NCBI GenBank assembly: GCA_964036195.1
Contig: OZ038458.1
Coordinates: 124,001-188,000 of the forward strand
Source of the DNA: Sphaerolaimus hirsutus
Taxonomy: Eukaryota > Nematoda > Chromadorea > Monhysterida > Sphaerolaimidae
DNA: 64,000 nt
Direction of reading: 5' to 3'
Part shown: positions 24,901 to 64,000 of the stretch, one piece after another
Numbering within the stretch: the first letter of the stretch is position 1
Layout of the letters: every line of letters begins with the position of its first letter
Made by a program: the position numbers and the translations under genes
Notes under the pieces: model-generated
The model's database searches: none
Told to the model about the DNA's origin: nothing
What the model saw: the letters and a program-made list of their open reading frames with translations, nothing else

Positions 24901-27900
24901 CTGAACACTGAGAAGTTTGTAGTAAAAAAACTGAAGTTTGTAGTAAGTGCGAGCGGTAACATTAATTCATTCTAAAAAAATCTAAAAATTCTAAATCTAC
25001 ATCCTCAACCCACGATGAACAAAACTACAACGATCAACATGCCCAGGTGCGCATATCTTACACGGCCGACCGGCCGACCACATTGGGGAAACGTGGCACG
25101 CGCAGCCGCTCGCCGCAGCACAAATTCGCGCCCAAGCCCAACAGAGACAGGTCGCCCGCGGTGAAGAAACACCGCAGGTTTGAGGCCGCTTTTTTCGGGT
25201 TTTCTGATTCTGATGTCCTGGGGTAGATTTTTTTTGGCGCCGTTGAGAAGTTTATTGTCCAGTGCTATTCGTGATCGGTCTCGATTTTTTATGCTTATCA
25301 AACACACGAAGCTGACGGGTCGAGCCTATTACGCATGTAAACCCATTATACAGTGCGCGCACACACAGGGTGCGGCAATTTACACGCCCCTCTAGATTTC
25401 ACTTCTCACTTCTCATTTTGCGGAACAGCCATAGAGCTCAGAGTATCGAGTTGCCCGACAACACATTACTTTTATACTTATGCTTGCCCAAAATTTGGGA
25501 TGATATAAATATTTTGTACAGTTCAAACAGTATTGACTTTTCGGATCGAAATTAGTTTTTCGAATTTCCGTGATCACGCGATTGGGGCCTCGGTGGAAAT
25601 TAGGGTGTCAACTTTCCGTTTTCCGTTTCCGCTTTCCGCGGGCAAAATTTTTTCCGTAAAAAAATTGTTGACACCCTAGTAGAAATTATGGGTATTTGGG
25701 ATCTGGATCTTCTTCGAACTCTACTACAAAAAATGTAGTAATCAGTATTGCGGAAAAAGGACACATAGATAGATACCCCCTATCCAGGGGTCTCCTAGGG
25801 GGGGGCCGCCCCCCCCCAAATCCCCCAGCTATCTATCTATCCCGGAGGCCGCTCAGCTATCTATCTATCCCGAATGCAAATTTTTTGGCTATATATCCCC
25901 CAAATCGGCCAGCTATCTACCTATATGTGTAGCGATTTTTGACTAATTTCGACCCAATTTTCGCTCAAAATCGCTAATTTTCGTACCTTTTTATAGTTTT
26001 TCACCTTTAAAATCGCGGTTTCGTCTATACACATGTTTATATACCTATTTTTAGACATTTTTTCCTTTCTGCCTCCTATGCATTGAAAAAGCCTATATAT
26101 TTTGCCCCCACGAGCCCCCCCCCCACAGGGCCGTATCCAGGGGGGGGCGGGGGGGGCTGCAGCCCCCCCCTCCCGGGGCGAGACCAGAAAGTGACCGGAA
26201 AATGCGACTTTTTCAACGTCAGCGTAAAAAATTTTGCGCGCAAGCGCGCATTCTTCACCATACATAAATGTATTATCATCTGATTTGCTCCATGTGGCCG
26301 CAAATCGTTGTAAATACACTCAATCTTGTGCTTTTTGCTGTTTTGTATGTATATTTACATACATATACAGCGTTCCATGGCGCTGACGCCAACGCCAATA
26401 GCGCCATGACGTGGCGCCGACTAATGGCGCCAGCGCCATAGCGCCATTCCGCCACTATTTAGCTAAAATTTTAGGGGGGGGGCTGAGCCCCCCCCCCTCG
26501 CCGGCCTCCGTAAACAAGCAGCCCCCCCCCGCTCAAAAATCCTGGATACGTCCCTGCCCCCCAGGAAAATTTTCAGCTTTCTATCCCTCCGCAAGAACTA
26601 TTTGCTATCTATCCAGCCCCCGCGAAGGCCAAAATCTTGGAGACCCCCGCCCCAATCATATGCGTACTTCCCAGCGCAACATAAAACCCCCTCAATGGCT
26701 GCCCAGATCGCCCGAGCACCAGCGCAACGGGGATGCGCACAGACCTGCGGCGGCCGGCCGCGGCGCCCCGGCGGACAAGCGGGAACCCGTCAAACTGGGC
26801 CACGGGTCTGGCGCCGGCGCCAAGCGACGCACGCCCACGCCGCCCAAGAAAGGTGCTCACTGCTTTTTGGCGGCCCCTGTGCCGGTGCACAAGTTTACCC
26901 GGTGCACAAGTAACTAAAGTAGTAAAAGGGCGTCATGGAGCGACGTACTTTGGCGCTCTCAATTGGTGCCATTCCATCACTAATCATGTGTATACTTGTT
27001 GTTTTGGAGGGGGGTTCGCAGGGGTTCAATATATAAGGAGAAGCTTTTCAAGCTTTAGAAGGAAAAAAAGGAGAAAAAATCGATAGATATGTAGATAGCT
27101 GTAGTTTTTTGGGGGTAACCCCCCCTCCAACACCCGATACTGAACCCCTGCAGTGCCCATGGAGACCCAGTGCTCAAATACGGGGGCCTCAACCAAGCAC
27201 CGGGTCTACATTGGCACCTACTTGTGCACTGGGTTCTATCCGTTTGGCACACCATTGGGGAAAGCTAGAACACAGGGGTCTCCAGGATTTTTACCCTTGA
27301 CAGATACCAAATCGCTCCTCCTTATATAGGTTAATGTTGTTGGGGGGGGGGTTTGCGGTGGTGCAATATTTTGGATTGTCTATATATTTAGGAGTGAAAA
27401 TTGTGGAAAAATCGCTTTGTGTGAGGGGGGGATTCAGGGGTACTAGTAAAAATATAATTAGCTGAGCGGCCCCATGTATAAGATAGCTGGGCGATTAGGG
27501 GGGTAACCCCGATTGCATAATACACACCTAATGAACAAACCCCAATATCTCAACCACCCTGACTTCTCGCAGCGCCGACGCCCGAAACGGAGTTCTGGGT
27601 GTGCGCCAGCTCGCTGCCGTCGGACATGTCGGCGGCGGCCGTGCGCGCCCAGTTCATCAAAGCCACCGACTGCGACGTGCTCGACGTGCGGCACCGCATC
27701 GACCAGGGCAAGGCGTTCGTGAGGCTGCCCAGTGCGGACGATAAGACCAGAGCGTTGAGGTTGGTCGCTGGCCGCACTACCGGACCCTGGAGAATGTCAA
27801 ATGTAGTGTAAAATGCACTGGACAAGTTCTTTAACTATTTTGCGTGACTTTTGACACTTTGCATGACATTTTACATTTTACAGGGCATTTTTCAAAGTCT

Positions 27901-29320
27901 GGGACTTGTACCTGGTCGATGTTTTTTTTGGGCGCCATTTTTAGCTGGGTGTACTTTTTACCGGCGGCTGAGGACATTGCTTTCAAAATGACTTTTTGTA
28001 GTTGTCGTGTGATTCAAATTGTTGCATTGTTTTTAAGTCATCCGATTTNNNNNNNNNNNNNNNNNNNNNNNNNNNNNNNNNNNNNNNNNNNNNNNNNNNN
28101 NNNNNNNNNNNNNNNNNNNNNNNNNNNNNNNNNNNNNNNNNNNNNNNNNNNNNNNNNNNNNNNNNNNNNNNNNNNNNNNNNNNNNNNNNNNNNNNNNNNN
28201 NNNNNNNNNNNNNNNNNNNNNNNNNNNNNNNNNNNNNNNNNNNNNNNNTACGATCCTTACGAAAATTTCTGACGAAATAATAAACCCCCCCCCCCCCCCT
28301 CGAATAAACCCCCCCCCCCTCGAATTAACCCCCCCCCCCCTTAAATTTTGCTGGCGAAATAATAAACCCCCATGGGGGTATTTCGAGGTAATACGGTAAC
28401 CCATTATTAAAAGAAAAATAAATGTAGCTGATTAAATAACTTTCTCGCAGGTCACATTTTGTACGTGCCGCCGGGCGCGGCGCCTCCAGAAGCGGCAAAA
28501 GTGCCTAAGAAGCCTAATCGTGCTCTCATGGATGATCTGAGGAAAAAGTTTCCTGGCGGCGGAGTTTTGAGTACCTCTGGATTGCCTGTGAGGCGTTTTT
28601 TCCTTTCTTTGATCGAACGTAGTGTTTAAAAAAAAGTCCACAAATGAGCATCAAAAAGACGACCTATAACTGGCAAGTAATTAACAAGAGCCAATTATAA
28701 AATCAAGAAAGAAGTCGCTTTATGAGTGTCAACTGAAACGACAAATAAGCAGCCAAAAGATATCAAAACATGTCAATATAAGTGGCAAGTGAAGAGGCAG
28801 TGAAAAAATCAAAATACAAGTGAGATGTAAGGAGACGAATGGCGAGTAAAAAAACATAAATGGAAACAAGTTTTTCACGCTTTCTCGTCACTTGTCACTT
28901 GTCTTTTAACTTGCCATTTATTGTCACTTGCCACTTAGAAATTGACTTCTCATCTAATTTTTTACATGCCTTTTCGCTTGCCACTTCTCAAATTACTTGC
29001 AACTTACAACTTATCGTCATACTTCTCCACTTGCATAATAGACTCCGTATATATTTATCTATATATCTATTTCTTTCCCCCCCCCACAGCACGACACCAA
29101 AATGGAGGACCTACTGTCGCTGTTCTCCGCTTACGGGCTGCAACGTCTCTCTGTACGCATGTACCACGTGGCAAATACGCAAACCACCGGCGATTGCGTG
29201 TTGCTGTGCCGCGACTCTAAAGCGGCCGCCCAGGCCGCCAGACAACTAGATGGATGTCCAGTCAGGGGTAATACTCGATTGGGCGTTGTCTGTTATGGAG
29301 ACTTGCATTTGGATGTCTAG
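9706..29320 (+). CDS. Multi-exon RNA-binding protein gene (Q/P-rich, four RRMs), 5' end missing
   Basis: Eighteen exons were placed by AG/GT boundaries and by requiring phase to carry across every junction. A nineteenth is hidden in the N gap and is read from the second copy at 55778-55931. The sum is 4092 nt, a whole number of codons ending in TAG at 29318-29320. Layout in the visible protein: residues 1-215 Q/P-rich; 215-395 PQRD repeats; 395-565 Gly/Arg-rich; 565-835 Q/P-rich with LDR motifs; RRM A about 836-922; RRM B about 950-1045; an RS/KR-rich linker; RRM C about 1130-1210; RRM D about 1280-1360. Several RRMs joined by RSRSP-like linkers recall RBM12/SWAN proteins of the nucleus. A role in RNA processing is inferred from the domains only. 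No start codon or promoter was found; the 5' exons lie upstream or were missed. The weakest junctions are the donors at 12662, 24579 and 27764, chosen for phase. Confidence 0.82.
10196..10363 (+). CDS. RRM-protein exon b
   Basis: The acceptor is cgcag|ATG and the donor CTG|gttggt. It has 56 codons, phase 0 at both ends. It encodes MGPPPNMSQQQQQQPP followed by more Gln/Pro and a QFDNFHPQHGG segment. A TA-flanked element begins 8 bp after the donor, so the first bases of the intron lie right beside mobile DNA. Confidence 0.75.
10371..11518. mobile_element. TA-flanked foldback element in an RRM-gene intron
   Basis: Left end CACTCCTGCAAAAATG, right end the near-complement, TA on both sides (10369-10370 and 11519-11520). 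A hAT MITE (10520-10952) is nested in it. A right-hand fragment of the same family ends at 48801. It starts 8 bp from the exon b donor. Confidence 0.8.
10520..10952 (+). mobile_element. hAT MITE, CAGGGCCGTATCCAGG family
   Basis: Perfect 8-bp duplication atcttgtg. The ends CAGGG(A/C)CGTATCCAGG are a variant of CAGTGGCGTAGCCAGG; the interior (GCGCGCTTGCGCGC-type palindrome near 10637, GGCGCC cluster at 10775-10840) is shared with the first group. Confidence 0.93.
11791..12016 (+). CDS. RRM-protein exon c
   Basis: The acceptor is cgccgcag|CAA and the donor CAAG|gtctgt. It has 226 nt, entering in phase 0 and leaving one base (G) that joins AT of the next exon to give Asp. The product is Gln/Ala/Pro-rich (QSEQSGTPTAQAV at the start, FQQTQHAHQ at the end). 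The carried phase makes this junction well supported. Confidence 0.78.
12121..12661 (+). CDS. RRM-protein exon d, PQRD tandem repeats
   Basis: The acceptor is gactacag|AT; the reading frame gives DWRASRQPQRDDSY at the start. It holds about 12 copies of a degenerate 11-residue unit, roughly Q-P-P-Q-R-D-x-x-Y-G-S, ending near 12560, then a non-repeat tail (WRPRPDVHNVEQQGY). A Tyr/Gly/Ser/Gln repeat of this sort is typical of disordered, condensate-prone regions of RNA-binding proteins. The 3' end is uncertain. The donor G|gttggt at 12662 was chosen because it leaves the two bases needed by the next exon; donors at 12619, 12645 and 12655 break the phase. Confidence 0.78.
12714..13396. mobile_element. 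Element with repeated AAAAGTACCGATCTAC units
   Basis: Inverted ends GAAGGGTGTGCTTCTAAAAG, flanked by ATAT. About eight direct copies of a unit like taaaagtaccgatctacac occur at irregular spacing (near 12727, 12899, 12941, 12990, 13017, 13085, 13125 and 13162), and the right end carries it inverted. No coding. Confidence 0.75.
13417..13990. mobile_element. hAT-like element filled with GGGATC repeats
   Basis: Perfect 8-bp duplication cacatgag. Ends TAGGGTTCAAACGGGA and exact complement. Both arms consist largely of GGGATCGGGATT units in the same orientation, broken by short spacers. Close relative at 31640-32205. Confidence 0.93.
14386..15936. mobile_element. hAT-like element with GGAAAACGG repeats carrying retrotransposon sequence
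   Basis: Perfect 8-bp duplication catgggat. Begins TAGGGTGTCAAA and ends TTTGACACCCTA. Arms of about 250 bp hold repeated ggaaaacggaaaggtaaa units. Between them lies the BEL/Pao-like fragment at about 14650-15740. Much smaller relative at 25601-25678. Confidence 0.9.
14865..15740 (+). pseudogene. Broken BEL/Pao-type reverse transcriptase fragment
   Basis: Three frames together show BEL/Pao reverse-transcriptase features: RIVYDGSAGKPSFNECLFRG at about 14865-14925, then after a frame change LIADIEKAFLQIG at about 14975-15015, FKRVLFGLVCSP near 15120, and later NNIYVDNF and MNMREWLSNS at about 15250-15370, then AYDPIGFTAPVSL near 15560 and WDEPIED. Stops and frameshifts separate the parts, so it is not functional. 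No LTRs, protease, integrase or gag were found. It sits inside the arms of a hAT-like element, either captured or inserted. Confidence 0.82.
16531..16725 (+). CDS. RRM-protein exon e, Gly/Arg-rich
   Basis: The acceptor is atccacag|C and the donor GCG|gtgcgt. The frame reads GGIGRGGGSDFNPPPQRGS at the start and ends ARGAAESFTP plus two bases. This frame has no Met near its start, so a simple ORF search misses it. Joining its last CG to T of the next exon gives Arg. A donor AA|gtaggg at 16689 looks stronger but breaks the frame. Confidence 0.65.
16845..17662. mobile_element. hAT-like element with TCGATATT repeats, left end degraded
   Basis: Right end GTTTGAACCCTA, as in 36871-38118, whose interior it shares (ttttggtatagcaag near 17034). 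Both ends have arrays of tcgatattcgatattttt. The left TAGGG terminus is missing; atgcaa occurs on both sides. It lies in the intron before exon f. Confidence 0.7.
17832..18144 (+). CDS. RRM-protein exon f, MERG repeats
   Basis: The acceptor is atccgcag|T and the donor CAG|gtgata. The frame reads GRGLSRGGG, then six or seven copies of a unit like M-E-R-G-G-G-G-S, then a Pro/Ala segment and KSEPRDVKPD. Arg-Gly repeats of this type commonly bind RNA and are arginine-methylated (family knowledge). An alternative in-phase donor (CAG|gtgcag) lies 18 nt earlier. Confidence 0.75.
18366..18671 (+). CDS. RRM-protein exon g
   Basis: The acceptor is aacgcag|AAA and the donor CAC|gttcgt. It has 102 codons, phase 0 at both ends. 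It starts KSLESATTAYKAEQQMMM, then Gln and Pro runs, and holds SLLDRVAPPH, the first of the recurrent LDR motifs. An APPPPQQRQMDAPPQQ segment follows. Confidence 0.78.
18757..19072 (+). CDS. RRM-protein exon h, long poly-Gln
   Basis: The acceptor is tctacag|AAT and the donor GCAG|gtggat. It has 316 nt and leaves one base. A CAG/CAA run at about 18856-18940 encodes a long Gln tract, likely length-variable. It is followed by DINFSPFASKPPED and two LDR motifs (NILDRRQSA and NMLDRVPPPH). Confidence 0.78.
19334..19526 (+). CDS. RRM-protein exon i
   Basis: The acceptor is actgcag|CA and the donor TT|gtgagt, a strong consensus. The frame reads AMGGTPTFGAAVAAFG and ends DAFGGILDR plus TT, which joins C of the next exon to give Phe. 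This is the fourth LDR motif, directly before RRM A. Confidence 0.78.
19690..20092. mobile_element. CCGTATTTCCTCGAAATACC element, copy 1
   Basis: Ends CCGTATTTCCTCG and its complement; TA precedes the left end, while the right flank is tg. Long G runs occur next to gtatttcgagg motifs. Same family as 33003-33424, where the TA duplication is proven by an empty site. Confidence 0.75.
20405..20572 (+). CDS. RRM-protein exon j, first half of RRM A
   Basis: The acceptor is gccgcag|C. The frame gives YVRVSNIPRELLSRG (strand 1, RNP2-like), an ELGRFFGRDL helix, then LHVDKHRRVAVVRVN (strands 2-3, RNP1-like) and QRDVE. The donor GA|gtcagt at 20573 keeps the frame into exon k; the nearby TCA|gtttgg does not. 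Confidence 0.8.
20831..20921 (+). CDS. RRM-protein exon k, end of RRM A
   Basis: The acceptor is gtcgtag|A and the donor CAG|gttact. It encodes TIRTKNGIMNVVVGDSAVDE, the second helix and fourth strand, closing RRM A. Only 91 nt long. Confidence 0.75.
21173..21618 (+). mobile_element. hAT MITE, CAGGGACGTATCCAGG family
   Basis: Perfect 8-bp duplication gtcacgta. The left end has one substitution (CAAGG). It contains the GCGCGCTAGCGCGC palindrome near 21296 and a GGCGCC cluster at 21438-21508. It lies in the intron between exons k and l. Confidence 0.92.
21940..22134 (+). CDS. RRM-protein exon l, start of RRM B
   Basis: The acceptor is cccccag|GGC and the donor AAT|gtgtgt. It has 65 codons, phase 0 at both ends. 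An Ala/Gln linker is followed by SLWVSLSNVPYRSTKADIDD, a clear first strand and first helix of an RRM, ending MPLTIEN. Confidence 0.82.
22272..22724 (+). mobile_element. hAT MITE, CAGGGGTCTC family
   Basis: Perfect 8-bp duplication tgacccgt; ends CAGGGGTCTCC and GGAGACCCCTG. Nearly identical in order to 2610-3107 with small deletions. Confidence 0.93.
22767..24006. mobile_element. Tc1/mariner-like element of 1.24 kb, copy 2
   Basis: TA-flanked inverted ends CACTACCGTGCAGAATAG. Collinear with 3963-5223 with scattered substitutions and small deletions. No transposase recognised. It lies in the intron between exons l and m. Confidence 0.82.
24009..24437. other. Intron sequence, no gene seen
   Basis: AT-rich sequence holding two agcgtg-type inverted segments (gcttccagcgtg near 24316 against agctggaagcgtg near 24173), perhaps an old foldback. 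Confidence 0.4.
24438..24578 (+). CDS. RRM-protein exon m, middle of RRM B
   Basis: The acceptor is cccgcag|AAA. It encodes KLAPNGRASDVWLLEFSKLG (third strand, RNP1-like) and a helix ending VLALNDRRP. The donor ATC|gtcggt was chosen for phase 0 into exon n; the CG|gttt four bases on breaks it. A 97-bp hAT-like element sits 25 bp downstream. Confidence 0.75.
24604..24700. mobile_element. Minimal hAT-like element, 97 bp, GGGACC type
   Basis: Perfect 8-bp duplication gtggtcat. Ends TAGGGTTCAGACGGGAC and GTCCCGTTTGAACCCTA. It is little more than two ends of the element type at 59636-60445. It sits 25 bp after the exon m donor. Confidence 0.93.
25047..25177 (+). CDS. RRM-protein exon n, end of RRM B and RS-like linker
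   Basis: The acceptor is gcccag|GTG and the donor CGCAG|gtttga. It encodes VRISYTADRP (fourth strand) and a basic linker with RGTRSRSPQHKF and NRDRSPAVKKHR. RSRSP linkers between RRMs are also seen in RBM12. The last two bases (AG) join A of the next exon to give Arg. Confidence 0.78.
25178..25592. other. Intron sequence with two repeat ends
   Basis: At 25316-25345 gcctattacgcatgtaaaccc recurs at 63955-63975 at the window edge. At 25365 cagggtgcggcaattta matches the ends of the element at 35624-36154. No coding frame. Confidence 0.45.
25601..25678. mobile_element. Minimal hAT-like element, 78 bp, TTTCCG type
   Basis: Flanks gtggaaat and gtagaaat (7 of 8). Ends TAGGGTGTCAACTTTCCG and TTGACACCCTA: a tiny member of the family at 14386-15936. 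Confidence 0.88.
25785..26649 (-). mobile_element. hAT MITE, CAGGGGTCTC family, interrupted
   Basis: Flanks cccctatc and ccccaatc (7 of 8). It is split by the hAT MITE at 26126-26556. In copy 2 the same element continues without that insertion (54033-54240). Confidence 0.85.
26126..26556 (+). mobile_element. hAT MITE, CAGGGCCGTATCCAGG family, absent from copy 2
   Basis: Ends CAGGGCCGTATCCAGG and CCTGGATACGTCCCTG. The duplication is a C run plus A, so its edge is fuzzy, but the unoccupied site in copy 2 (about 54125-54142) confirms the borders. GCGCGCAAGCGCGC palindrome near 26236. Confidence 0.92.
26707..26852 (+). CDS. RRM-protein exon o, basic linker
   Basis: The acceptor is gcccag|A and the donor AAAG|gtgctc. 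The frame reads SPEHQRNGDAHRPAAAG, then DKREPVKLGHGSGAG and KRRTPTPPKK. It leaves one base that joins CG to give Ala. The second copy at 54280-54424 is one base shorter, which shifts the frame there. Confidence 0.78.
27006..27512. repeat. Two degraded CAGGGG-family fragments
   Basis: 27006-27150 and 27274-27512 hold atagatagct, aatcgctcctcc and aaaaatcgct motifs of the family at 2610-3107. Both are shared with copy 2 (54580-54722 and 54835-55058), so they predate the split. They fill the intron between exons o and p. Confidence 0.65.
27573..27763 (+). CDS. RRM-protein exon p, most of RRM C
   Basis: The acceptor is tctcgcag|CG. The frame reads APTPETEFWVCASSLPSDMS (first strand), AAAVRAQF (helix), CDVLDVRH, GKAFVRLP (third strand) and DDKTRALRL. 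The in-phase donor is TTG|gtcgct; the more obvious GAG|gttggt four bases earlier breaks the frame with the next exon as read in copy 2. Confidence 0.82.
27775..27912. repeat. Short foldback with TGTCAAATGTCATGC-like sequence
   Basis: Left arm aatgtcaaatgtagtgtaaaatg and right arm cattttacattttacaggg pair imperfectly, with gactttgaaaaatgccctg-type ends. Related units occur near 6965-7070, 11575-11610, 21125-21170, 44890-45010 and 51885-52175. It begins 12 bp after the exon p donor. Confidence 0.5.
28049..28248. other. Assembly gap (200 N) hiding RRM-protein exon q
   Basis: Exactly 200 N, so the size is nominal. In the second copy the matching intron interval holds an exon (55778-55931) needed for phase and for the last strand of RRM C. 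Sequence after the gap is the inside and right end of a CCGTATT element, ending TAATACGG|TA near 28397. Long C runs (28285-28340) probably broke the assembly. Confidence 0.85.
28451..28587 (+). CDS. RRM-protein exon r, start of RRM D
   Basis: The acceptor is ctcgcag|GT and the donor CCT|gtgagg. The frame reads GHILYVPPGAAPPEAAK, then RALMDDLRKKFPGG and GVLSTSGLP, the first strand of RRM D. It enters in phase 1, matching the single base left by the exon seen at 55778-55931. Confidence 0.8.
28655..29035. repeat. CACTTGCCACTT foldback in the last intron
   Basis: The left part reads ggcaagt units on the plus strand and the right part reads the complement (cacttgccacttc), so the intron folds on itself. 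It is shared with copy 2 (56855-57735), where a hAT MITE has inserted into it. Confidence 0.6.
29090..29320 (+). CDS. RRM-protein terminal exon, rest of RRM D and stop
   Basis: The acceptor is cccacag|CAC, phase 0. It encodes HDTKMEDLLSLFSAYGL (helix), RLSVRMYHV, GDCVLLCRD (RNP1-like third strand), SKAAAQAARQLDG (helix) and RLGVVCYGDLHLDV, then TAG. The protein ends right after the RRM fold, as RBM12 does. No convincing AATAAA signal is visible close by; the 3' UTR start runs into a foldback hairpin at 29411. Confidence 0.85.
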   Translation, partial: HDTKMEDLLSLFSAYGLQRLSVRMYHVANTQTTGDCVLLCRDSKAAAQAARQLDGCPVRGNTRLGVVCYGDLHLDV

Positions 29321-29410
29321 AGGGCTTGGTTTGGGGTTTAGGTGATATTTAGAGTCTCGTTTTGGAGTTTGCAGTTTGTTTTTGTTTTTGAGGATGCTTA
29401 GTGGATATTG

Positions 29411-29582
29411 GCCCCACCCACACTAGTTTACCAACATGAAATGCTCGACCATTTTGGTAAACTGTTTTGACAAAACGGTACGAAACACCGTACAAATCTG
29501 TGCAGTGTTTCGTGCTGTTCTATCAAAACAGTTTACCAAAATGGTCGAGCATTTCATGTTGGTTAACTAGTGTGTGTTTTGG
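29411..29582. repeat. Near-perfect inverted repeat just after the RRM-gene stop
   Basis: Arms of about 75 bp from cacactagtttaccaacatg to its complement, loop near 29495. Copy 2 has it at about 58080-58252. It starts about 90 bp after the stop codon, so it is probably in the 3' UTR. The ends resemble other foldbacks with ccacacactagttgac ends. Confidence 0.85.
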
Positions 29583-30192
29583 CATTATCTAAGTAGCTGC
29601 GTTGTTCGGATTCGCGTTTTTTCGTTAATTGAATTTTTGGTCATCTTTGTGTTGACCCGAATCGAAAAACATGGCATCCGGTCACTGAAAATCAAAGGTA
29701 TTTTAGATAAAACGTAGAAATCTTCTGAAATCTAAGGTTGAATTTCAACTACCGAAATCTTGAGTAAAAATACCCTGGGCTTTTGGCATGAATTCGTCAA
29801 GGCCAATCTGTTGGATCATTTTTGTTTCATGGTCAAACATTTTTTGTTCGTTTTTTTGCGATCTTGCTTTTTCATATGTTACGAATGAGTCGATGTCGAT
29901 AGAATGAATTTAGTCTGATTATGAGAAATGATACAGTTTTCATTTTGTTACTCTTGATTTGTCTGTTGTATTGTCACTCATTTACAAGGTTCTCGCTTTT
30001 CTGTCTGATCATTTTTTTCACCCGATTATGTTCATTTATTAAGTGTATCTGTGGGCAAGTTTTTATTCAATAATTTTCATTTGCATATGTAGATGTTGAT
30101 TATGAGCTTGCAACGCGTCAGTTCAAGTAACGTGAATACACGAATTTCATGGAACATTACATTGCGCTGTATTTACCGTCCGTATCTCATCG
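29583..30192. other. 3' flank of the RRM gene, no further coding
   Basis: AT-rich sequence, closely matched by 58253-58864 in copy 2. Likely 3' UTR or downstream sequence. No obvious AATAAA signal was seen in it. Confidence 0.4.
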
Positions 30193-30194
30193 TA

Positions 30195-31448
30195 AACACC
30201 TTCCCGGTCAGGTCCGGCACCCTATTTTTGATTTCGGTTATGTTACCTTTACTCCCGCTGCGCGGGTGGTAGAACGTTGAATATGCGCGGTTATATAGTT
30301 GTAACCCCCCTCTACGCCACATCAATGGGGGAGGCTACGGCGACTCACTACAGGGTGGGTCGCCATATATGCAAAGTTTTTTCCCAGCTTTTCCAGTGTC
30401 CCTCAAAGTTCAGGCACCCATCGGATTTCGTTACACAGTGGGTGCCGTATCTTCAGCTAGGTGGGGAGTGGAGAGCTGAAATTTGGGGGAAGTTCAGCCA
30501 ACACCTTCCCCTACTATACACTTGTGGGGAGTCCGCCAGCTGCTCACTATAGGGTCACTGCATTTCAATTTCGTTTAAAAAATCCCTACAGATCCCACCA
30601 ACATCCTTAGTGTCTGACAAAAAATTGACTTTAGGCAACTTTTTTATTAGACACTTGAAATGTTGATTTACAGTGACTCACAGGGGAGTGTTTAAGGTTC
30701 AAGGTTGCGTAAAGAACATGGCCTTTAAAATGCATCCTTTACAAAATTTACTCGGGGTACATTTAAAAGTTGTTTTTGTCAAATTTTGTTCCTGCAATGA
30801 TCTCATTATGACATCAAAAAAATTACCCCAAGTAGATTTTGTAAAGGATACATTTTAAAGGTCATGTTCTTTACGCAACCTGAACCCTTGAACCCTCCCC
30901 TGTAAATCACCATAAATCAACATTTCAAGTGACTAGTTCGATGGTAAGTTTTCTGGTTTGGGATTAGGGTCAGTATAGCGGCCACCAGATTGGGGTTGTT
31001 TTTTAAATAAATTGAAATGTTTTGAAAAAATGAGGTTTTGCATGTGGTTCGCTCAAGTGTTCTATTGCAAAATTTCATGCATGGGTGCTATTGCGACCTC
31101 ATAAAAACACAGACGGTTGCCGGACCGAAATGGGACACTTTGATTTTTTTAAACTAAAACGCGGAAAACGGCGCTATAGTAAGTCGCGGACAGTCGCCCC
31201 ACTGGTGTACAGTAGAGAGGAGGTGTTGGTTAAACTCACCCCAAATTTCAGCCTTCTATCCCCCACACAGCTGGAGGTACAGCACCCGTAGTGTAACGAA
31301 ATCAGTGGGTGCCGGTGCCGGACCTGTGTGGGACACTGAAAACGCCCCCAAAAATGTTGCATATATGGCGTCCAACCCTGTAGTGAGTCGCCGTGGCGCC
31401 CCCCATTGATGCGGTGTAGAGGGTGCCGGACCTGACCGGGAAGGTGTT
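30195..31448. mobile_element. TA-flanked long foldback, absent from copy 2
   Basis: Ends AACACCTTCCCGGTCAGG and exact complement, TA at 30193 and 31449. Copy 2 has the empty site at 58861-58875. The arms pair imperfectly over more than 250 bp; a second palindrome (about 30660-30935, caaggttgcgtaaagaacatg and complement) lies inside. Confidence 0.88.
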
Positions 31449-31639
31449 TATATTCGCACCGAGTTGTTGTTTTTTTCATTTATTGTTCAACCTCGTAGCG
31501 TAGTGTATTTTACAGTCGAAATTGAATACAAATAAAATGGGAAATTTTGCGCATGCTTCTTTGTGATGAATCGGAACATTTTTCGGCACTTGAAAATTGT
31601 CCTACTATCCGTCAACAGAAATAGTAGTTGACATGGGAA

Positions 31640-32205
31640 TAGGGTCCAAACGGGATTGACTTTTCGGGATCGGGATCGGGATTCACTTTTTGAGATTTCG
31701 GGATCGGGATTGGTGTTTCGGGATCGGGATCGGGATTGGTTTTTTGAGATTTCGGGATCGGGATCGGGATTGGCCGGGATTGGGTTCACGGGATCGGGAT
31801 CGGGATTGGGATAGGCGTTTTGCCGGGATCGGGATTGGGTTCTAGGGATAGAGATTTTGACCATTTTTCTGGCATTCACAGTTGTTCATAAAGGTCTCAA
31901 AACACTGTTGGATGTCAGAAAAGTGGCATAAAATTGATGCTGGGGGTTTCCGTCCACATTTTTGCATGCAAAAACGTCATTTTTTTACTTTTTATAATTT
32001 CCACTAATTTTTCCGGGATCGGGATCCCGGACTTGGGAGTTTCTCGGGATCGGGATCGGGATTTGAAAATTTTCGGGATCGGGATCGGGATTGGTATTTT
32101 TGGATTTCGGGATCGGGATTGGGGTTCCGGGATCGGGATCGGGACTGGTAAATCCCGGAATTTCACGGGATCCGGGATCGGGATCGGGATCCCGTTTGAA
32201 CCCTA
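31640..32205. mobile_element. hAT-like element with GGGATC repeats, absent from copy 2
   Basis: Perfect 8-bp duplication catgggaa; the single uninterrupted site is at 59053-59060 in copy 2. Ends TAGGGTCCAAACGGGA and TCCCGTTTGAACCCTA. Closely related to 13417-13990 along its length. Confidence 0.95.
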
Positions 32206-32213
32206 CATGGGAA

Positions 32214-33002
32214 CCAGTTGACAGTCGAGTGTGCAGCCCTTGATCCCTTCGGTTTCGCTCCATGTATCATAATTGAGCCATTCATTTCCCCAATGTGCTT
32301 TCGACCGCTTTGGTGGCGGAAAGGACGCTTGCTTTTTGATTTTCGACGCTTGTTATCGACTTTACGCTTACACTTTTCTTTTCACTTGTCCGTCTGCGGA
32401 ATACTAAGTTTTTATAGTGCCATGCGTAGATGTAGGAATGCTTCCTACCCCCTGACGCCCCTGAAAATGTTGCTAGGTATGTTTTCCTCTTGAATGCAAT
32501 GGAAATAAAATCAGCAGACTAGCATTTGTTTGCGCGGAATGCAATGCTTAAGGAAAATGTGTACAAAAAAATTGCATTTGCATTTCGTGCCCATTCTCTG
32601 TGATTCAGGCGTCGCGGTTTTCCACCTTTGTCGCTTCAAAATGTGCTCGAAATATTTCTGTAGACAGTTTGAAGAAAAAAAACTGTATTATACTCGGCGG
32701 ACCGCAAAGTATGCTCAAAATCCTACCATAATTTGACGAATAAAATCTTGCGATAAATTTCGTAATTAATGATTCCATAGTGAAAACAAAATATTATGAT
32801 GAAAAAACTGTAAAATTTTGGTTCATTATTCAGATGGGGTATGGTAGGTTTCCATACTAAGTGTGATGTCCATCGAGTATACTATTTTTACATCAACAAA
32901 ATTCTTCTTTACTGTGAAAGAATTAGCGTAAATGATTCAGTAGTATTCTAGTTTTCGCGTAAATATAATGACTGCAAACAGAAGGTATCGTATATACTCG
33001 AC
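32214..33002. other. Unassigned, shared with copy 2
   Basis: Matches 59061-59287 and 60486-61053. No splice-bounded coding frame. An aataaa lies near 32512. It may hold the promoter of the zinc-finger gene, but no motif proves it. Confidence 0.4.
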
Positions 33003-33424
33003 TACCGTATTACCTCGAAATACCCCCATGGGGGTTTATTATTTCGCCAGCAAAATTTGAGGGGGGGGGGGTAATTCGAGGGGGGGGGTATTCGAGGCGG
33101 GGTTTTATTATTTCGTCAGAAATTTTCGTAAGGATAGTAGGCATTTGCGTACCCAAAATAGGTAATAAATGTGTCCAAACAGGATATATTTGGACATAAA
33201 AACGTAGATAGCTACACAAACTAGTCTATGTGTAGCTGCAATGCAAATTAACAGTAATATACATCATGTACATTGCGTACATGACGTATTTATTATGTAC
33301 ATGACGACGTACATCATTCCGAAGGGGGGGGGGGGGTATTTCGAGGGGGGGAGGGGTTTATTCTTCCCCAGCCCATTTTGAGGGGGGGTTAATTCAAGGG
33401 GATGATAATTCGAGGTAATACGGT
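33003..33424. mobile_element. CCGTATT element, absent from copy 2
   Basis: TA at both edges, ends CCGTATTACCTCGAAATACC and complement. Copy 2 has the uninterrupted site at 61051-61058. This fixes the family as TA-duplicating. It is nested in an older gaataattcccc element spanning 32988-33716. Confidence 0.9.
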
Positions 33425-33900: not shown

Positions 33901-33908
33901 TTTTGCAG

Positions 33909-46672: not shown

Positions 46673-46712
<40 letters not shown>

Positions 46713-52920: not shown

Positions 52921-52922
52921 TT

Positions 52923-55777: not shown

Positions 55778-55931
55778 ACTGACGGCAAGTACGTGGGTCT
55801 GCAACGCATCGTGGTGCGGTCGTGCAGCATGCGGGACGCGCACACCGTCGCTCGACCCCGAGCCCCTGCCGCCGCGCCCAATGCCGAGTGCAACAGTGGG
55901 GAGGATAACTTGCCCCATGCTCATCCGCCGG
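55778..55931 (+). CDS. Copy-2 exon q, end of RRM C (missing from copy 1)
   Basis: The acceptor is cttgcag|ACT after a long C run; the donor is CCGG|gtaagt, an excellent match. It encodes TDGKYVGLQRIVVRSCSMRD (fourth strand of RRM C), then a Pro/Ala linker ending NLPHAHPP. It leaves one base, as exon r needs. The poly-C acceptor tract explains the gap in the first copy. Confidence 0.78.
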
Positions 55932-56131
55932 GTAAGTGGTGAGAGTTGTTAGAACTTGGGTGAGGGTGATATGACTTTTGGATGTGGATGTCGGATTTGT
56001 TTTCGCTGGAAGTCGATTCAGTAGAAAATGTGGTCGATATGTGATATTATAAATGTGTGAAAAAGTCGATAAAAAAGTTCGATTTTTTTATTCTTGAAAT
56101 CTAAATTCTATATGATATAATACTCGATATC

Positions 56132-56362
56132 GGGCCCCCACACACTGGATGTCAACTGAATTCGTGTCAACTCAATGTCAACTGAATTTAAATGATACTG
56201 TGATTTCAACTTATCTATCTGATAGAGCATAGTTAAATTTACATCATGACACTTCATTTTCATTGTTCCTGTTAAGTGTGATGCTTTATCAAACTTCTTG
56301 TTTTATTCGATTGACACTGAGTTGACGCGAATTTGGGATGTCAACTAGTGTGTGTGGGCCCA
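56132..56362. mobile_element. Foldback with GGGCCCCCACACACTGGATG ends
   Basis: Left end ccacacactggatgtcaact, right end gatgtcaactagtgtgtgtggg; arms pair with a gtgtcaactcaatgtc core. It lies in the intron between copy-2 exons q and r. Same family as 59288-60485. Confidence 0.75.
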
Positions 56363-56627
56363 TAGTTACGATAGCTCTTGCAGCCGTACTGTCTGATACC
56401 TTTCTATCAAATTTGAATGCATTGGCTCTACACACGAGCTTTTTCAGCCGAAACTTTGAAAACTCACAAATGACCTGTCAACTACTTGAGTCTTGTGGAA
56501 TGTTGTGTCCGTCAACTACAGTTAAAAACGTCAATTAAAAACAACTCATAAATATTATTCAATTAATCAATTAACCCATTATTCAAAATATAAAAAATTG
56601 TAGCTGAATCAATAACTTTCTCGCAAG

Positions 56628-56764
56628 GTCACATTTTGTACGTGCCGCCGGGCGCGGCGCCTCCAGAAGCGACAAAAGTGCCTAAGAAGCCTAATCGTGC
56701 TCTCATGGATGATCTGAGGAAAAAGTTTCCCGGCGGCGGAGTTTTGAGTATCTCTGGATTGCCT
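56628..56764 (+). CDS. Copy-2 exon r (start of RRM D)
   Basis: It has 137 nt, as in the first copy. The acceptor has one extra A (cgcaag for cgcag) but AG is kept. It encodes GHILYVPPGAAPPEATK and ends GVLSISGLP. Confidence 0.75.
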
Positions 56765-57006
56765 GTGAGTCGTTTTTTCGTCATTTTTTTTCCTTTTTTC
56801 GATCGGATGTAGTCTTGAAAAAATTCTGCAATGAGAATCAAAAAGACAACCTATAAGTGGCAAGTAATTTAATAAGAGAAGTAAAAATCAAGAAAGAAGT
56901 CACTTTAGGAGTGTCAAGTGAAGGGACAAATTACAAGCCAAAAGACAGGTCAATATAAGTAGCAAGTGACGAGGCAGGTAAAAAGTCAAAATACAAGTAA
57001 CGAGAC

Positions 57007-57528
57007 CAGGGTCTCCTAGGGGTCCAGGGGCTGCCCCCCCCAAATCGGCCAGCTATCTATCTATCCCGGAGGCCGCTCAGCTATCTATCTATCCTGAGGC
57101 AAAATTTTTGGCTACTACCCCCAAAGACCCCCCCCCCCCCAATCGCTCAGCTATCTATCTATCTGGAGTGGTTTTTGAGAAATTTTGCCCCAATTTTCGC
57201 TCAAAATCACCAATTTTCGCACCTTTTTATAGTTTTTCACCTTCAAAATCGTGCTTTCCGGCTATATGCATGGTTATATACCTATTTTTAGCCATTTTAT
57301 ACCCTACTTTTGGCTACTTTTAACTGATTATTAGCGATTTTTTCTCCTTTCTGCGTCATAACCTTGAAAAAGCCTATATATTGTGCCCCCGCCAGCCCCC
57401 CCCCAAGCCCCCCCCCCAGCCTCCCCCCCAACCCCCCCCCAGAAAAATTTTCCAGCTATCTATCCCTCCGGAGGAGCGATTTGCTATCGATCCAGCCCCC
57501 GCGAGGGCCAAAATCCTGGAGACCCCTG
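57007..57528 (-). mobile_element. hAT MITE, CAGGGGTCTC family, absent from copy 1
   Basis: Perfect 8-bp duplication aacgagac. Ends CAGGGTCTCC and GGAGACCCCTG. Copy 1 has uninterrupted sequence at about 28822-28840. It lies in the last intron of the gene copy. Confidence 0.95.
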
Positions 57529-57775
57529 AACGAGACAAATGACAAGTAAAAAAGATAAATGGAAAAAAGTATTTCACGCTTTCTCGTCACTTGTCATTTG
57601 TCTTTTAACTTGCCATTTATTGTCACTTGCCACTTAGAAATTGACTTCTCATCTAATTTTTTACATGCATTTTCGCTTGCCACTTCTCAAATCACTTGCC
57701 ACTTACAACTTATCGTTATACTTCTCCACTTGCATAATAGACCCCTGTATCTATTTCTACCTCCCCCCCCCACAG

Positions 57776-58006
57776 CACGACACCAAAATGGAGGACCTAC
57801 TGTCCCTGTTCTCCGCTTACGGGCTGCAACGTCTCTCTGTACGCATGTACCACGTGGCAAATACGCAAACCACCGGCGATTGCGTATTGCTGTGCCGCGA
57901 TTCTAAAGCGGCCGCGCAGGCCGCTCGACAACTCGATGGATGTCCAGTGAGGGGTAATAATCGATTGGGCGTGGTCTGTTATGGAGACTTGCATTTGGAT
58001 GTCTAG
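57776..58006 (+). CDS. Copy-2 terminal exon (RRM D and stop)
   Basis: It has 231 nt, the same frame and the same TAG as the first copy, with one residue change (GNNRLG for GNTRLG). The substitutions seen are mostly silent, which argues for constraint or recent origin. Confidence 0.75.
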   Translation, partial: HDTKMEDLLSLFSAYGLQRLSVRMYHVANTQTTGDCVLLCRDSKAAAQAARQLDGCPVRGNNRLGVVCYGDLHLDV

Positions 58007-58252
58007 AGGGCTTGGTTTGGGGTTTAGAGTGTCGTTTTGGAATTTGGAGTTTGCTTTTGAGGATGCTTAGTGGATATTGGGCCCACACACTCTAGTTTAC
58101 CAACATGAAATGCCCGACCATTTAGGTAAACTGTTTTGACAAAACGGTACGAAACACTGTACAAATCTGTGCAGTGTTTCGTACTGTTCTATCAAAACAG
58201 TTTACCAAAATGGTCGAGCATTTCATGTTGGTAAACTAGTGTGGGTGTTGGC

Positions 58253-59287
58253 ATTATCTAAGTAGCTGCGTTGTTTCGGATTCGCGTTTTTTCGTTAATT
58301 GAATTTTTGGTCATCTTTGTGTTGACCCGAATCGAAAAACTTGGCCTCCGGTCACTGAAAATCAAAGATATTTGAGATAAATTTAGAAATCTTCTGAAAT
58401 CTAACGTTGAATTTCAACTACCGAAATCTTGAGTAAAAATACCCTGGGCTTTTGGCATGAATTCGCCAAGGCCAATCTGTTGGATCATTTTTGTTTCATG
58501 GTCAAACATTTTTTGTTCGTTTTTTTGCGATCTTGCTTTTTCATATGTTACGAATGAGTCGATGTCGATAGAATGAATTTAGTCTGATTATGAGAAATGA
58601 TACAGTTTTCATTTTGTTACTCTTGATTTTTCATGTGTCTGTATTGTCACTCATTTACAAGGTTCTCGCTTTTCTGTCTGATCATTTTTTTCACCCGATT
58701 ATGTTCATTTATTGAGTGTATCTGTGGGCAAGTTTTTATTCAATAATTTTGATTTGCATATGTAGATGTTAATTATGAGCTTGCAACGCGTCAGTTCAAG
58801 TAACGTGAATACACGAATTTCATGGAACATTTCATTGCGCTGTATTTACCGTCCGTATCTCATCGTATATTCGCACCGAGTTGTTGTTTTTTTCATTTAT
58901 TGTTCAACCTCGTAGCGTAGTGTATTTTACAGTCGAAATTGAATACACATAAAATGGAAAATTTTGCGCATGCTTTTTTGTATCAGATGAATCGGAACAT
59001 TTTTCGGCACTCGAAAATTGTCCTACTATCCGTCAACTGAAATAGTAGTTGACATGGGAACCAGTTGACAGTCGAGTGTGCAGCCCTTGATCTCTTCGGT
59101 TTCGCTCCATGTATCATAATTGAGCCATTCATTTCCCGAATGTGATTTTGACCGCTTTGGTGGCGGAAAGGACACTTGCTTTTTGATTTTTGACGCTTGT
59201 CATTCGACTTTACGCTTACACTTTTCTTTTCACTTGTCCGCCTGCGGAATACTAAGTTTTTATAGTGCCATGCGTAGACGTAGGAAT
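58253..59287. other. Copy-2 3' flank, no gene seen
   Basis: Matches 29583-30194 and 31449-32440 of copy 1 with those elements missing. A useful reference for the empty sites at 58865 and 59053-59060. Confidence 0.55.
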
Positions 59288-60485
59288 GGCGCTACACACT
59301 GGATGTCAACTGTTTCGGTGTCAACTCGATTTTGGTTGAATTTAGGTAGCAAGACAATTTTGAAGGACACCTGCGGCAATGTCGAAGAGGAATTTATATT
59401 GTCATGTGCATTTGAACACGGTTTCGCAGCCCATAAACTAAAAATTTACGAAAAACTGTCGGCCCAGTTGACATCTGGATGTCAACTGGGCCGACAGTTT
59501 TTCATAAATTTTAAGTTTATGGGCCGCGAAACCGTGTTCAATTGTACATGGCAATATAAATTCCTCTCCAACATTGCCGCATGTGCCCTTAAAAACTGTC
59601 CTGCAAGCTACAGTGTCATAAAATCGAGTTGACACTAGGGTTCAAACGGGACCAGTTTTTCGGACCGGGACCGGGACCGGGACCAGAAATTTTTCTTATC
59701 GGGACCGGGACCGGGACCGGGACTAGGTGGTCGGGACCGGGACCGGGACCGGGACTGGCATTTTTCAATTGTCGGGACCGGGACCGGGACCGGGACTGGG
59801 GCATCCGGACCGGGACCAGGATTTGCCGAACCAGGTACCAGGACCACAGCCCCCCCTTTGAGCCCTATCGGGACTGATAACCATTTGAATGTATATTTTC
59901 AGAAGTTTCATACGATTTTTACACTTCATTCAATCAAAATTGTCATCAAAAATATAATAAAAGTCACAAAATTCAATTGAGTGACAAAAAAGGACATAAC
60001 GCACGAAAATTATGACAGTGAGTATTGATACATAAGCTGGCACAGTGCTTTCTGAAGGAAAATAAATTTTTCAGCCTTCTCTGATGTCGAACATGAATGA
60101 GAATGTTTGGAACTCTCCAAAAAAACGTCAAAAATTCGTCAACGGAATGAGAATGCGCCAACTGGCGCATATTTTTTCGAATTTTACAAGTATTTTAAAC
60201 GCAAAATTTGGATAAAGTCCGGTCAATCTTTCTTATCGGGACCGCTGAAAAATTCCGGGACCGGGACCGGGACCGGGACTGGGTGGTCGGGACCGGGACC
60301 GGGACCGGGACTGGCCTTTTTCAATTGTCGGGACCGGGACCGGGACCGGGACTGGGGTGTCGGGACCGGGACCGGGACCGGGACCGCCCCAGTCCCGACT
60401 TTTTGCCGAACCATGTACCGGGACCGCGGTCCCGTTTGAACCCTAGTTGACACCGAAACAGTTGACATCCAGTGTGTGTGGCACC
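59288..60485. mobile_element. Foldback with TACACACTGGATGTCAACTG ends, absent from copy 1
   Basis: Left ggcgctacacactggatg, right catccagtgtgtgtggcacc, AAT on both sides; the empty site is at 32437-32439. The inner arms pair around 59475 (cagttgacatct and complement). A GGGACC element is nested near its right end. Confidence 0.88.
59636..60445. mobile_element. hAT-like element filled with GGGACC repeats
   Basis: Perfect 8-bp duplication gttgacac. Ends TAGGGTTCAAACGGGACC and GGTCCCGTTTGAACCCTA. Two blocks of (GGGACC)n flank about 330 bp of unique sequence; gccctatcgggac at about 59865 suggests that two elements have merged. Confidence 0.92.
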
Positions 60486-61033
60486 AATGCTTCCTACCCC
60501 CTGACGCCCCTAAAAATGTTGCTAGGTATCTTTTTTCTCTTGAATTCAATGGAAATAAAATCAGCAGACTAGCATTTGTTTGCGCGGAATGCAATGCTTA
60601 AGGAAAATGTGTACAAAAAAAATTGCATTTGCATTTCGTGCCCATTTTCTGTTTGTGATTAAGGTGCCGCGGTTTTCCACCTTTGTCGCTTCAAAATGTG
60701 CTCGAAATATTCCTGTAGACAGTTTGAAGAAAAAAACTGTATTATACTCGGCGGACCGCAAAGTATGCTCAAAATCCTACCATAATTTGACGAAAAAAAT
60801 CTTGCGTTAAATTTCGTTATTAATCATTCCATAGTGAAAACAAAATATTATGATGAAAAAACTGTAAAATTTTGGTTCATTATTCGGATTGGGTATGGTA
60901 GGTTTCCATACTAAGTGTGATGTCCATCGAGTATACTATTTACATCAACAAAATTGATCTTAACTGTGGAAGAATTAGCGTAAATATTCAGTAGTATTCT
61001 AGTTTTCACGTAAATATAATGACTGCAAACAGG

Positions 61034-62091
61034 AGGTACCGTATATACTCGACTAATTCCCCCGCCTTGAAAAATTCCCCCTCGAATAATTCCTCCCTCA
61101 AATAATCCCCTTTAGGCATATGATAGTTTTTGCACCCAATTTGAACAAATATTGCACGTTATTTAGTAAATAAAGCATATTTTATGATATTAGTTAATAG
61201 AAACATGTAGTGATAGAAAAGCGCCAGAAAAAAGGGCGCCATGGCGCCATTCGGAATGTGGGCGCCAAACGCCAAGGGCGCCACAGAAAAAGGGCGCCAA
61301 GCGCCATTCGGAAAGTGGTCGCCAGGGGCTCCACGGGAAGAGGGCGCCATGGCGCCATTTGGAAAATAGGGCGCAGGATAAAGAAGTGCGTACAACACCC
61401 TAGAAGTGCTAAAAATGTTTCTTCAGCGCCATTCAGTGCTACACGCATTCACTTCTTTATTGGCATTTTCCAGGATGTAATGCACAAAAACAATAGTAGC
61501 AACAAAAAAATTTGTAATAAAATCCATATGACGAATACAAACAAAATGGAAATTGTCATTTGACAACAATCCATTCACTTCAAATAGACTTTTCCAACCA
61601 ATGTTTCCATGAAATGGACAAAAACGGAATTGCAACAATTTGAATCCGTTCATTTATGATTTTGCAAGTTCAACGGTTCATCGTTCTTATCTTCTGATCC
61701 ATCAGACACATCTGATGAACCGCTGGATGAAAGATTTCCACCCGTTCACACCACTTCGTCCATTTTTCCGGCGAATTTAGATTATCCACGCATGCGTTTT
61801 TTTTCATTTACCCCATTTCCATTTATCCCTTTTAAAGCAGGGCGCCAAGCGCCAAGGGCGCCATGGCGCCTTTCAGAATGTGGGCGCCAGGCGCCACAGA
61901 AAAAGGTCGCCAAGCACCAATGGCGCCATGGCGCGGCGCCCTTTGGCGCCAGTTCCATGGCGCCAATCCATCACTAGAAACATGCTTTACATTTTTGATG
62001 AAATAATAATCCCCCCTTGAATGATTCTCCCCTCATAAAGGTCTGACGATAAAAATTCCCCGGGAGGATTATTCGAGTATATACGGTAGTT
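61034..62091. mobile_element. CCGTATATACTCG element holding a hAT-like element
   Basis: Left taccgtatatactcgactaa and right ttattcgagtatatacggta. It is present in copy 1 as the shell around 33003-33424 (32988-33716). Split here by 61208-61976. Confidence 0.75.
61208..61976. mobile_element. hAT-like element with GGCGCC repeats, absent from copy 1
   Basis: Perfect 8-bp duplication gaaacatg; single empty site at 33603-33610. Begins TAGTGATAGAAAAGCGCC and ends GGCGCCAATCCATCACTA. Both arms hold many GGCGCCATGGCGCC and related units. Confidence 0.95.
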
Positions 62092-62283
62092 TCACTTTTT
62101 TTCCTTTTTCGGTTACGTAATTCCATGGATAACATGGCTGACAATTATAATTTTAATCTGCATATGCAAATTAATTGACACAGTGAACTCGCCAGCGAAC
62201 TCATTCCCATAGCAGTCGCTAACAATGGACGAGAGTTTGCAATTCCAAATCCAAGTCCGAGTGTCTGCACTGTGATTTCGCAG

Positions 62284-62355
62284 TGGACAATAGCTGCAGC
62301 TGGACATCCACAGCGCCAACGCAGCGCCACGGCCATGGCGTCAGCGCCAGCCAAG
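62284..62355 (+). CDS. Second copy of the zinc-finger ATG exon
   Basis: The acceptor is tttcgcag and the donor CCAAG|gtcagt; the ATG at 62335 gives MASAPAK. It differs from 33909-33972 by an 8-nt duplication (acagcgcc) upstream of the ATG. No finger exon follows within the window, which ends 1.6 kb later. Confidence 0.45.
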
Positions 62356-62369
62356 GTCAGTGGTCGTAA

Positions 62370-63667
62370 TTAGTGTGTCAAATTTCCGTTTTGGCAGTTT
62401 TCTGGCCACGAAATTTTTTTCCCGTTTCCATTTTCTGTCTCATTTTCCGTTTTCTGGCTAAATTTTTAGTTTTTCCAGCTTTCTATTTTCCAGCTAAATT
62501 TTCTGTTTTTCCACCCTGTTCATTTTCCGGCTAAATTTTCTGTTTTGCCACCTCGTATTCCCTTTTTCCGGCTCAATTTTCTGTTTCAGCCAAACTGGTA
62601 AACGTGCATGCATGATTTCAATTACCTATGTTAAATTTTTATCAAAATTTCAGCAATTTTTACCATTTCCAGCAACTTGCATTTATAATGCTAAGCTAAC
62701 AAAAACTGGTGGATTTTTTTAATTTATACTGGTCTGTCGCAAAAGGTTTTGCCGTTTTCGAATCGCGTCGTATTGTATCGCCATGGACGATCCTAGTGGC
62801 TTCCAGAGTTGTTAAAATACTGGTATTTTTGGAAAGTGTAAGCGTAAATACACTTTCCAAATTTTGAGTATGGATACCAAAAGTGTAAGGTATTTTTAAA
62901 ATACCCAGGAAAGTGTAAAAAAAGTGTAAGTGTAAATTTTTTTTAGAAAGCGCTCTCACTGTTGAGCATCAGAAAACACCACTGTTTTCACCTTTAGATT
63001 AATTTATTTATCATTTTCATTCATTATTTCACATTTTACTGCCAATTATGAAACGTTTCAGACTGTAACAAATTTAGTGGTTTGAAGTTGCCTAATAATG
63101 ACACTTTTTCAGTGTTGATATTTTACTGATTAAGCAATGTTATACACACTGTTTAAATTCAAAGAATGTACATGCAGCAAATATCAATGCAAAAGCCAGT
63201 CGACTTTGTGTCCAGCTGGTGAATTTCAATTGATCTTGTCCTTTTTACAAAAGTATGATGAAACTGTAGAATACCATGAGTACTGTTCAAAAATCAGAGA
63301 TAGTGCTAGTTTGCGCATTTGCCATATTTTCTACATTCTGCATAACTGCATATGTGCACTGTGCAGTTATTTTTTGTACATGAACCTGTTTTATGCTTTC
63401 TCAAAAGCATAAAACAGGGCCATGTGAAAGGAAAAAAATACACTTTCTGTACCCGGGTATTTTACCCAGGAAAGTGTAAAAAAAGTGTATGGGTATTTTA
63501 TGAAAGTGTAAGTGTAAATATAAATACCCATTTACCCGGGTATTTTGGGTAAGTGTAAATACACTTTCGCAACTCTGGTGGCTTCCAGCCGGGGTATAAT
63601 GGAAAGGAAAATGGAAAGGTAAAAAATTTTCCTGTGGAAAGGCGGAAACGGAAATTTGACACCCTAG
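62370..63667. repeat. Degraded TAGGGTGTC-family element with a later insertion
   Basis: Begins tagtgtgtcaaatttccg and ends ggaaatttgacaccctа-type sequence at 63667, with ttttccgttttctgg repeats on the left. Copy 1 has a shorter, more decayed version from 33992. Flanks match poorly (5-6 of 8). Confidence 0.5.
62804..63577. mobile_element. hAT-like element, CAGAGTTG ends, absent from copy 1
   Basis: Perfect 8-bp duplication gtggcttc; single empty site at 34401-34408. Ends CAGAGTTGTTAAAA and TTTCGCAACTCTG. aaagtgtaagtgtaaatac units sit in both arms. An internal hairpin (gcataaaacagg near 63408) is also present. Confidence 0.95.
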
Positions 63668-64000
63668 TACTGATTCATCTCTATCGTGTCCAAAACTCGA
63701 CATGCACTGTCCACCGTTTCCGAGGTTACTGATTTTTCAATGAAATTCTATGTAAAATCATTTGGTATAAAATAAAACCATAAACTTGGATACGTGTAGT
63801 ATCATCCACTTTTGCAATCAATTTCGCGGTAATTTTTCTTCTTGAATGTTTCATCTATTTATCTGTAATACCAGCTAATACACCTCAATTGAAACCGTAC
63901 GATTCACGACGAACCAATGGTAGACGATGCGGAAACGGCTAGTAGAAATGGGTCAGGCCTATTACGCATCTAAACCCATCACGCATGTATATCCATTATA

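Follow-up and report, generated by a model that had tools for sequence, protein, structure and literature searches.

Two very probably allelic copies of a zinc-finger locus laid end to end in a scaffold of the nematode Sphaerolaimus hirsutus

Introduction

Tandem allele misassembly has been described for the genome of Ciona savignyi, both as a term and as an error, in a paper that also tabulates haplome-specific hAT, Harbinger, PiggyBac, Pogo and other elements (PMC1868934). Gaps between duplicated pairs were put forward as a mark of false duplications by Ko et al. 2022 (PMC9516828). High heterozygosity has been reported for Botryllus schlosseri (3.63%; PMC12448946) and for amphioxus (3.2-4.2%; PMC12862219).

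Here we describe a locus of Sphaerolaimus hirsutus at which two collinear segments follow each other on one scaffold. We consider it very probable that they are the two allelic versions of one locus, carried by an animal of very high heterozygosity, and hence a retained haplotig or tandem allele misassembly.

Methods

The window, the whole stretch of DNA that was analysed, comprises 64,000 nucleotides (C14:124001-188000, where C14 stands for contig OZ038458.1). Other C numbers denote other contigs of the same assembly, which holds 348,482,957 bases in 762 contigs. Flanking DNA (C14:44001-124000 and C14:188001-308000) was compared along with the window, 264 kb in total. Positions without a contig name are those of the window. 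Two runs of exactly 200 N, at 28049-28248 and 53669-53868, delimit three pieces: A, which ends at 28048, B, spanning 28249-53668, and C, which starts at 53869. Copy 1 lies in A and B, copy 2 in C. For the refined divergence estimate, the zinc-finger pieces of the alignment were redrawn by hand and two pieces beyond an LTR element were left out, giving 39 pieces. The 26 large differences scored as possible insertions are one-sided, and further two-sided differences lie outside this count.

Results and Discussion

Self-comparison of the window recovers the collinear pair proposed in the first-pass annotation, 26023-34730 against 54034-63949 on the same strand, but the block ends given there (34730 and 63949) were wrong. 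Copy 1 continues to 53600, and copy 2 extends to C14:208902 and then, past an LTR element, to C14:217755. Both 200-N gaps, one of them inside copy 1, also went unmentioned there. The chained alignment of A plus B against C consists of 40 pieces, all in order and on one strand. Piece B (C14:152249-177668) is collinear with C throughout except for 148 and 68 bp at its ends, matching from C14:152397 to 177545, and to 177600 past the LTR element that is present only in C. The last 2.0 kb of A (from C14:150023) overlap the first 1.7 kb of C (C14:178034-179595), and opposite the first gap C has 976 bp that lack a counterpart. Two arrangements known from assembly errors are thus found together: similar copies adjoin on one scaffold, separated by assembly gaps, and a contained contig (B within C) is accompanied by overlapping contig ends (A and C).

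Runs of 200 N are by established practice the mark of a scaffolding join. Neither join is spanned by sequence, and the tandem order is therefore a product of scaffolding only. Copy 2 begins to match 165 bp after the second gap. These first 165 bp of C (53869-54033) resemble a dispersed repeat and have no match in A, with a best local score of 25 against a shuffled maximum of 28. Their lack of a match counts against an allelic origin of the copies; an insertion present only in C would explain it, and a duplication breakpoint would do so too. Coordinates of the features in the window are collected in Table 1.

Table 1. Features of the two copies in the window (TIR, terminal inverted repeat; "target" denotes the duplicated target site)
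Feature	Position	Strand	Remarks
Terminal part of piece A, beginning of copy 1 (probable allele 1)	26023..28048	+	Matches C14:178034-179595, the start of piece C
Copy-1-only element	26126..26556	.	TIR CAGGG; 7-bp target CCCCCCA, low complexity, weak
E1 copy 1, exon-like open stretch	27584..27769	+	
Assembly gap inside copy 1, 200 N	28049..28248	.	Hides at least the counterpart of 976 bp of copy 2
Piece B, 25,420 bp, probable retained haplotig	28249..53668	+	Collinear with piece C from 28397 to 53600
Fragment of poly-C TA-type inverted-repeat element	28249..28396	.	Piece B starts inside the element
E2 copy 1, exon-like open stretch	28453..28587	+	
E3 copy 1, exon-like open stretch to its stop	29090..29317	+	Weakly RRM-like, below Pfam cut-off
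Copy-1-only element	30195..31448	.	TA target, 16/16 TIR match
Copy-1-only hAT-like element	31640..32205	.	8-bp target CATGGGAA
Copy-1-only element	33005..33423	.	TA target, TIR CCGTATTACC
Copy-1-only palindromic element	34762..35169	.	TTA flanks; not in the first-pass annotation
Copy 1 chimeric C2H2 three-finger exon	35339..35620	+	5' part as first, 3' part as second of copy 2's tandem exons
Copy-1-only element	44039..44463	.	TA target, 16/16 TIR match
Copy-1-only element	50621..51094	.	TA target, TIR CCGTATT
Related poly-C element fragment	53601..53668	.	CCGTATTTCCTCGAAATACC; piece B ends inside the element
Assembly gap separating the copies, 200 N	53669..53868	.	
Start of piece C (probable allele 2)	53869..64000	+	Homology to A/B from 54034, past the window to C14:217755
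E1 copy 2	55132..55317	+	
E2 copy 2	56630..56764	+	
Copy-2-only hAT-like element	57007..57528	.	8-bp target AACGAGAC
E3 copy 2	57776..58003	+	
Copy-2-only element	59288..60485	.	3-bp target AAT
Copy-2-only hAT-like element	61208..61976	.	8-bp target GAAACATG
Copy-2-only hAT-like element	62804..63577	.	TIR CAGAGTTG, 8-bp target GTGGCTTC
Copy-2-only 838-bp element, first 51 bases in window	63950..64000	.	9-bp target AGTAGAAAT; continues past the window

Both terminal fragments of piece B derive from one type of poly-C element, whose members begin with CCGTATT; such elements at both ends of the piece may be where reads failed. A third 200-N gap in the compared DNA, at C14:305218-305417, has a 59-bp satellite on its left side and no overlap. 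The satellite forms an array at C14:301738-304668, and the start of the unplaced contig C596 carries the same repeat.

The first-pass annotation had left two readings side by side, haplotypes laid end to end and a true tandem duplication. We favor the former because B is contained in C, because both joins are 200-N gaps, and because an unplaced contig discussed below displays the same pattern. Allele 1 would have come out of the assembly in two pieces, A (its end) and B, and piece C would represent allele 2. The redundancy of B would have gone undetected, since only about half of the sequence is common to the two alleles, and scaffolding would have put B between A and C, across two nominal 200-N gaps. 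The real order would then be either A followed directly by C, or A followed by B's allele.

The competing tandem duplication would span ~ 28 kb, would be old enough for 5% divergence and many transposon insertions, and would have its junction in the second gap. The A-B-C order in the scaffold and the unmatched first 165 bp of C agree with it, but the junction of the copies and an internal point of copy 1 both fall in unsequenced gaps, and the whole of B has its counterpart inside C. That the junction between the copies was not found in the sequence, where the gap lies, excludes nothing by itself. A search of the assembly with 601 bases of the block gave 1,062 candidates, of which 40 were scored; exactly two of these match at 89% or more, which fits two alleles and a tandem duplication as well. 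Given the gaps and the containment of B, together with the evidence from exons and from the unplaced contig given below, we regard a duplication of this kind as improbable.

The shared sequence of the copies differs at 685 of 13,729 columns (5.0%), with 189 small gaps, in the 39 hand-refined pieces; the first alignment of 40 chained pieces had 771 differences in 13,666 ungapped columns. Shared bases amount to 13,895 of 27,446 in copy 1 and 13,913 of 30,869 in copy 2, i.e., about half of each copy. With this level of substitution, the small gaps and one restructured zinc-finger exon, the earlier wording that the segments differ "almost only by" transposons is too strong. Under the allelic reading, the alleles would differ by ~ 5% substitution and by insertions of many unrelated transposon types, the insertions having entered after the two lineages split.

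Among the 26 large one-sided differences, 19 display a target duplication together with terminal inverted repeats or LTRs, 7 of them in copy 1 and 12 in copy 2. Their targets comprise eight of 8 bp, five TA, one TTAA, two of 3 bp, one of 9 bp, one low-complexity target of 7 bp, and one 4-bp target of an LTR element; support is weaker for both 3-bp targets and for that of 7 bp. The remaining seven differences (i15, i20, i22, i24, i26, i31 and i36) have no convincing ends. The occurrence of such insertions in both directions upholds the proposal that transposons of several unrelated types were mobile after the two copies had separated.

Elements of the hAT class leave 8-bp target duplications and have terminal inverted repeats beginning with CAGGG, TAGGG and similar motifs. 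Eight of the insertions (i3, i5, i9, i10, i13, i27, i29 and i30) combine an 8-bp target duplication with terminal inverted repeats and can be classed, by their ends alone, as hAT-like non-autonomous transposons. At 62804-63577, a 14-bp target duplication was considered and rejected, as the true ends of a related copy give 8 bp plus the terminal inverted repeat. The empty site of 57007-57528 reads AAGGAGAC with seven further bases, GAGATGT, just before it, and is not perfectly clean. For several elements, relatives that possess both ends occur at other places in the 264 kb; 26126-26556 has six of them.

Eight of the nine elements originally listed as present in one copy only are indeed confined to one copy and flanked by target duplications. 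The ninth, described as an element ending at 28397, is cut by a gap: what remains is 148 bp immediately following the first gap, where copy 2 has 976 bp without counterpart. Since a gap-adjacent fragment here faces 976 unmatched bp, it could not be scored as a clean insertion.

One insertion, at C14:208903-217692 (8,790 bp), is present only in piece C and has GTGT target flanks. Its paired LTRs of 585 bp differ by 2 mismatches, have TG...CA ends and are bordered by the short target duplication; by its LTRs and ends, we identify it as a young LTR retrotransposon. It entered well after the copies split, because 2 differences in 585 bp between its LTRs are far below the 5% between the copies.

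Three neighboring exon-like stretches, E1-E3, are open and intact in both copies. One base differs between the copies at the splice acceptor of E2, with the AG kept. Pooled over the three stretches, there are 12 synonymous changes in 134.0 sites and 4 non-synonymous changes in 415.0 sites (dN/dS 0.10). Besides C2H2 fingers, a Pfam search gave no name to the coding stretches, E3 being RRM-like at E = 0.044, under the cut-off; the best solved-structure match of E3 is hnRNP Q (E = 0.48). An upstream coding-looking stretch, 18321-19080, presumably belongs to the same gene. Of 90 candidate places in the genome, 40 were scored, and a single one matches this stretch over its full length, so that after a tandem duplication the E1-E3 of copy 2 would be an orphan 3' end. 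Had copy 2 evolved without constraint from the split onward, its lineage alone would be expected to carry 10.4 to 19.7 non-synonymous changes, whereas 4 are seen (P 0.023 to 2e-5). This argues against a duplication that left an orphan, on the assumption that E1-E3 form one gene with 18321-19080. Two functional alleles explain the constraint simply, and two functional paralogues would fit too.

A second pair elsewhere in the assembly behaves alike. Nine zinc-finger matches at C14:2682773-2694570 have counterparts on the unplaced contig C653 (25,525 bases), in the same order and strand pattern. The two differ at 139 of 3,053 ungapped columns (4.6%; three pieces, from 3.1 and 4.2 kb). A CCGTATTTC element stands at a TA on C14:2.69 Mb only, the site on C653 being empty, and a second block of ~ 680 bp on C14:2.69 Mb is absent from C653. 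We take this as an independent case of the same pattern, and the existence of a similar pair that has no tandem placement speaks against a tandem duplication at the main locus. C653 might, however, not be an allele but a paralogous cluster of zinc-finger exons, which counts against our preferred explanation. The gap at C14:305218-305417 with its lack of overlap does so as well, and so does the start of C500, which does not behave as a simple haplotig: the 3,000 bases concerned recur identically in C204 and C56 and in part, at 88-94%, on C6.

The 3,000 bases shared by these three unplaced contigs, at 100% identity, lie at C500:1-3000, C204:3279-6278 and C56:6564-9563, and are in part 84-94% identical to C6:3.00-3.12 Mb.

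The zinc-finger exons had been regarded as unique, but a second copy of them lies beyond the window; as they are present in both copies, they would mislead as a read-depth reference. Two three-finger exons stand in tandem in copy 2 (C14:188996-189279 and C14:189369-189634), and copy 1 has one, a chimera that displays a single clear switch between the two copy 2 exons with few exceptions. Its simplest cause would be an unequal exchange or deletion between two tandem exons. Clusters of the same exon family are located at C14:0.75, 0.955, 1.09 and 2.61-2.695 Mb, at C1:2.41 Mb, at C13:5.36 Mb, and on two unplaced contigs, C653 and C557, often on both strands. The frequency of these clusters on C14 and their local multiplication would suit a mixture of real local duplication and haplotype mixing, with B, for example, allelic to a second, unassembled copy, but no third copy is required, the block query finding two places at 89% or more among 40 scored, and we consider such a mixture highly improbable.

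Returning to two alleles of one locus, we hypothesize, tentatively and with some doubt, that one allele alone acquired the chimeric three-finger exon by unequal exchange. The allelic repertoire of the cluster would then be reshuffled within the species, in alleles that share about half of their DNA, diverge by 5% elsewhere and keep being separated by transposons of at least five target-site classes.

Tandem allele misassembly is already known, and the locus shows nothing new in kind; what merits attention are the half-unshared alleles and the chimeric exon. The locus matters mainly as a caution. Gene counts would be inflated here, with the zinc-finger exons and three further exons listed twice, and the pair could be mistaken for a recent segmental duplication. 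Read as alleles, the pair would offer a direct view of both, in which dated transposon insertions with their target sites, and the chimeric zinc-finger exon, form a small natural data set.

Comparison with Known Systems

In the ascidian mitochondrial code, AGR stands for Gly. In mitochondrial COX1 of the present assembly (C762), six of the nine AGR positions aligned to the best solved chain face Ser and one of the nine faces Gly, so that AGR here probably reads Ser, unlike in ascidians, which points to an invertebrate outside that group.

The divergence of the copies is of the same order as the heterozygosity values cited above for Botryllus schlosseri and amphioxus, but it refers to aligned sequence at one locus, whereas those values are genome-wide. 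By the definitions of purge_dups, piece B would be a haplotig (a contained duplicate) and the ends of A and C a heterozygous overlap (PMC7203741). The gaps within a pair on one scaffold resemble the false heterotype duplications of Ko et al. 2022, and the duplication of some exons beside their gene resembles the ZBTB11 example in the same paper (PMC9516828). Purge_dups also draws on read depth (PMC7203741) and Ko et al. 2022 on half-depth and k-mer criteria (PMC9516828), whereas our comparison is one of sequence.

The Ciona savignyi study, based on Sanger data with paired reads, was genome-wide (PMC1868934), whereas here the comparison covers the assembled sequence of one locus and one unplaced contig. 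For the classes of misassembly removed in that study, median lengths were 0.7-3.5 kb (PMC1868934), against ~ 27.6 kb here. The arrangement itself is the same as we propose for Sphaerolaimus hirsutus, with two alleles adjoining in one scaffold of a highly heterozygous animal (PMC1868934).
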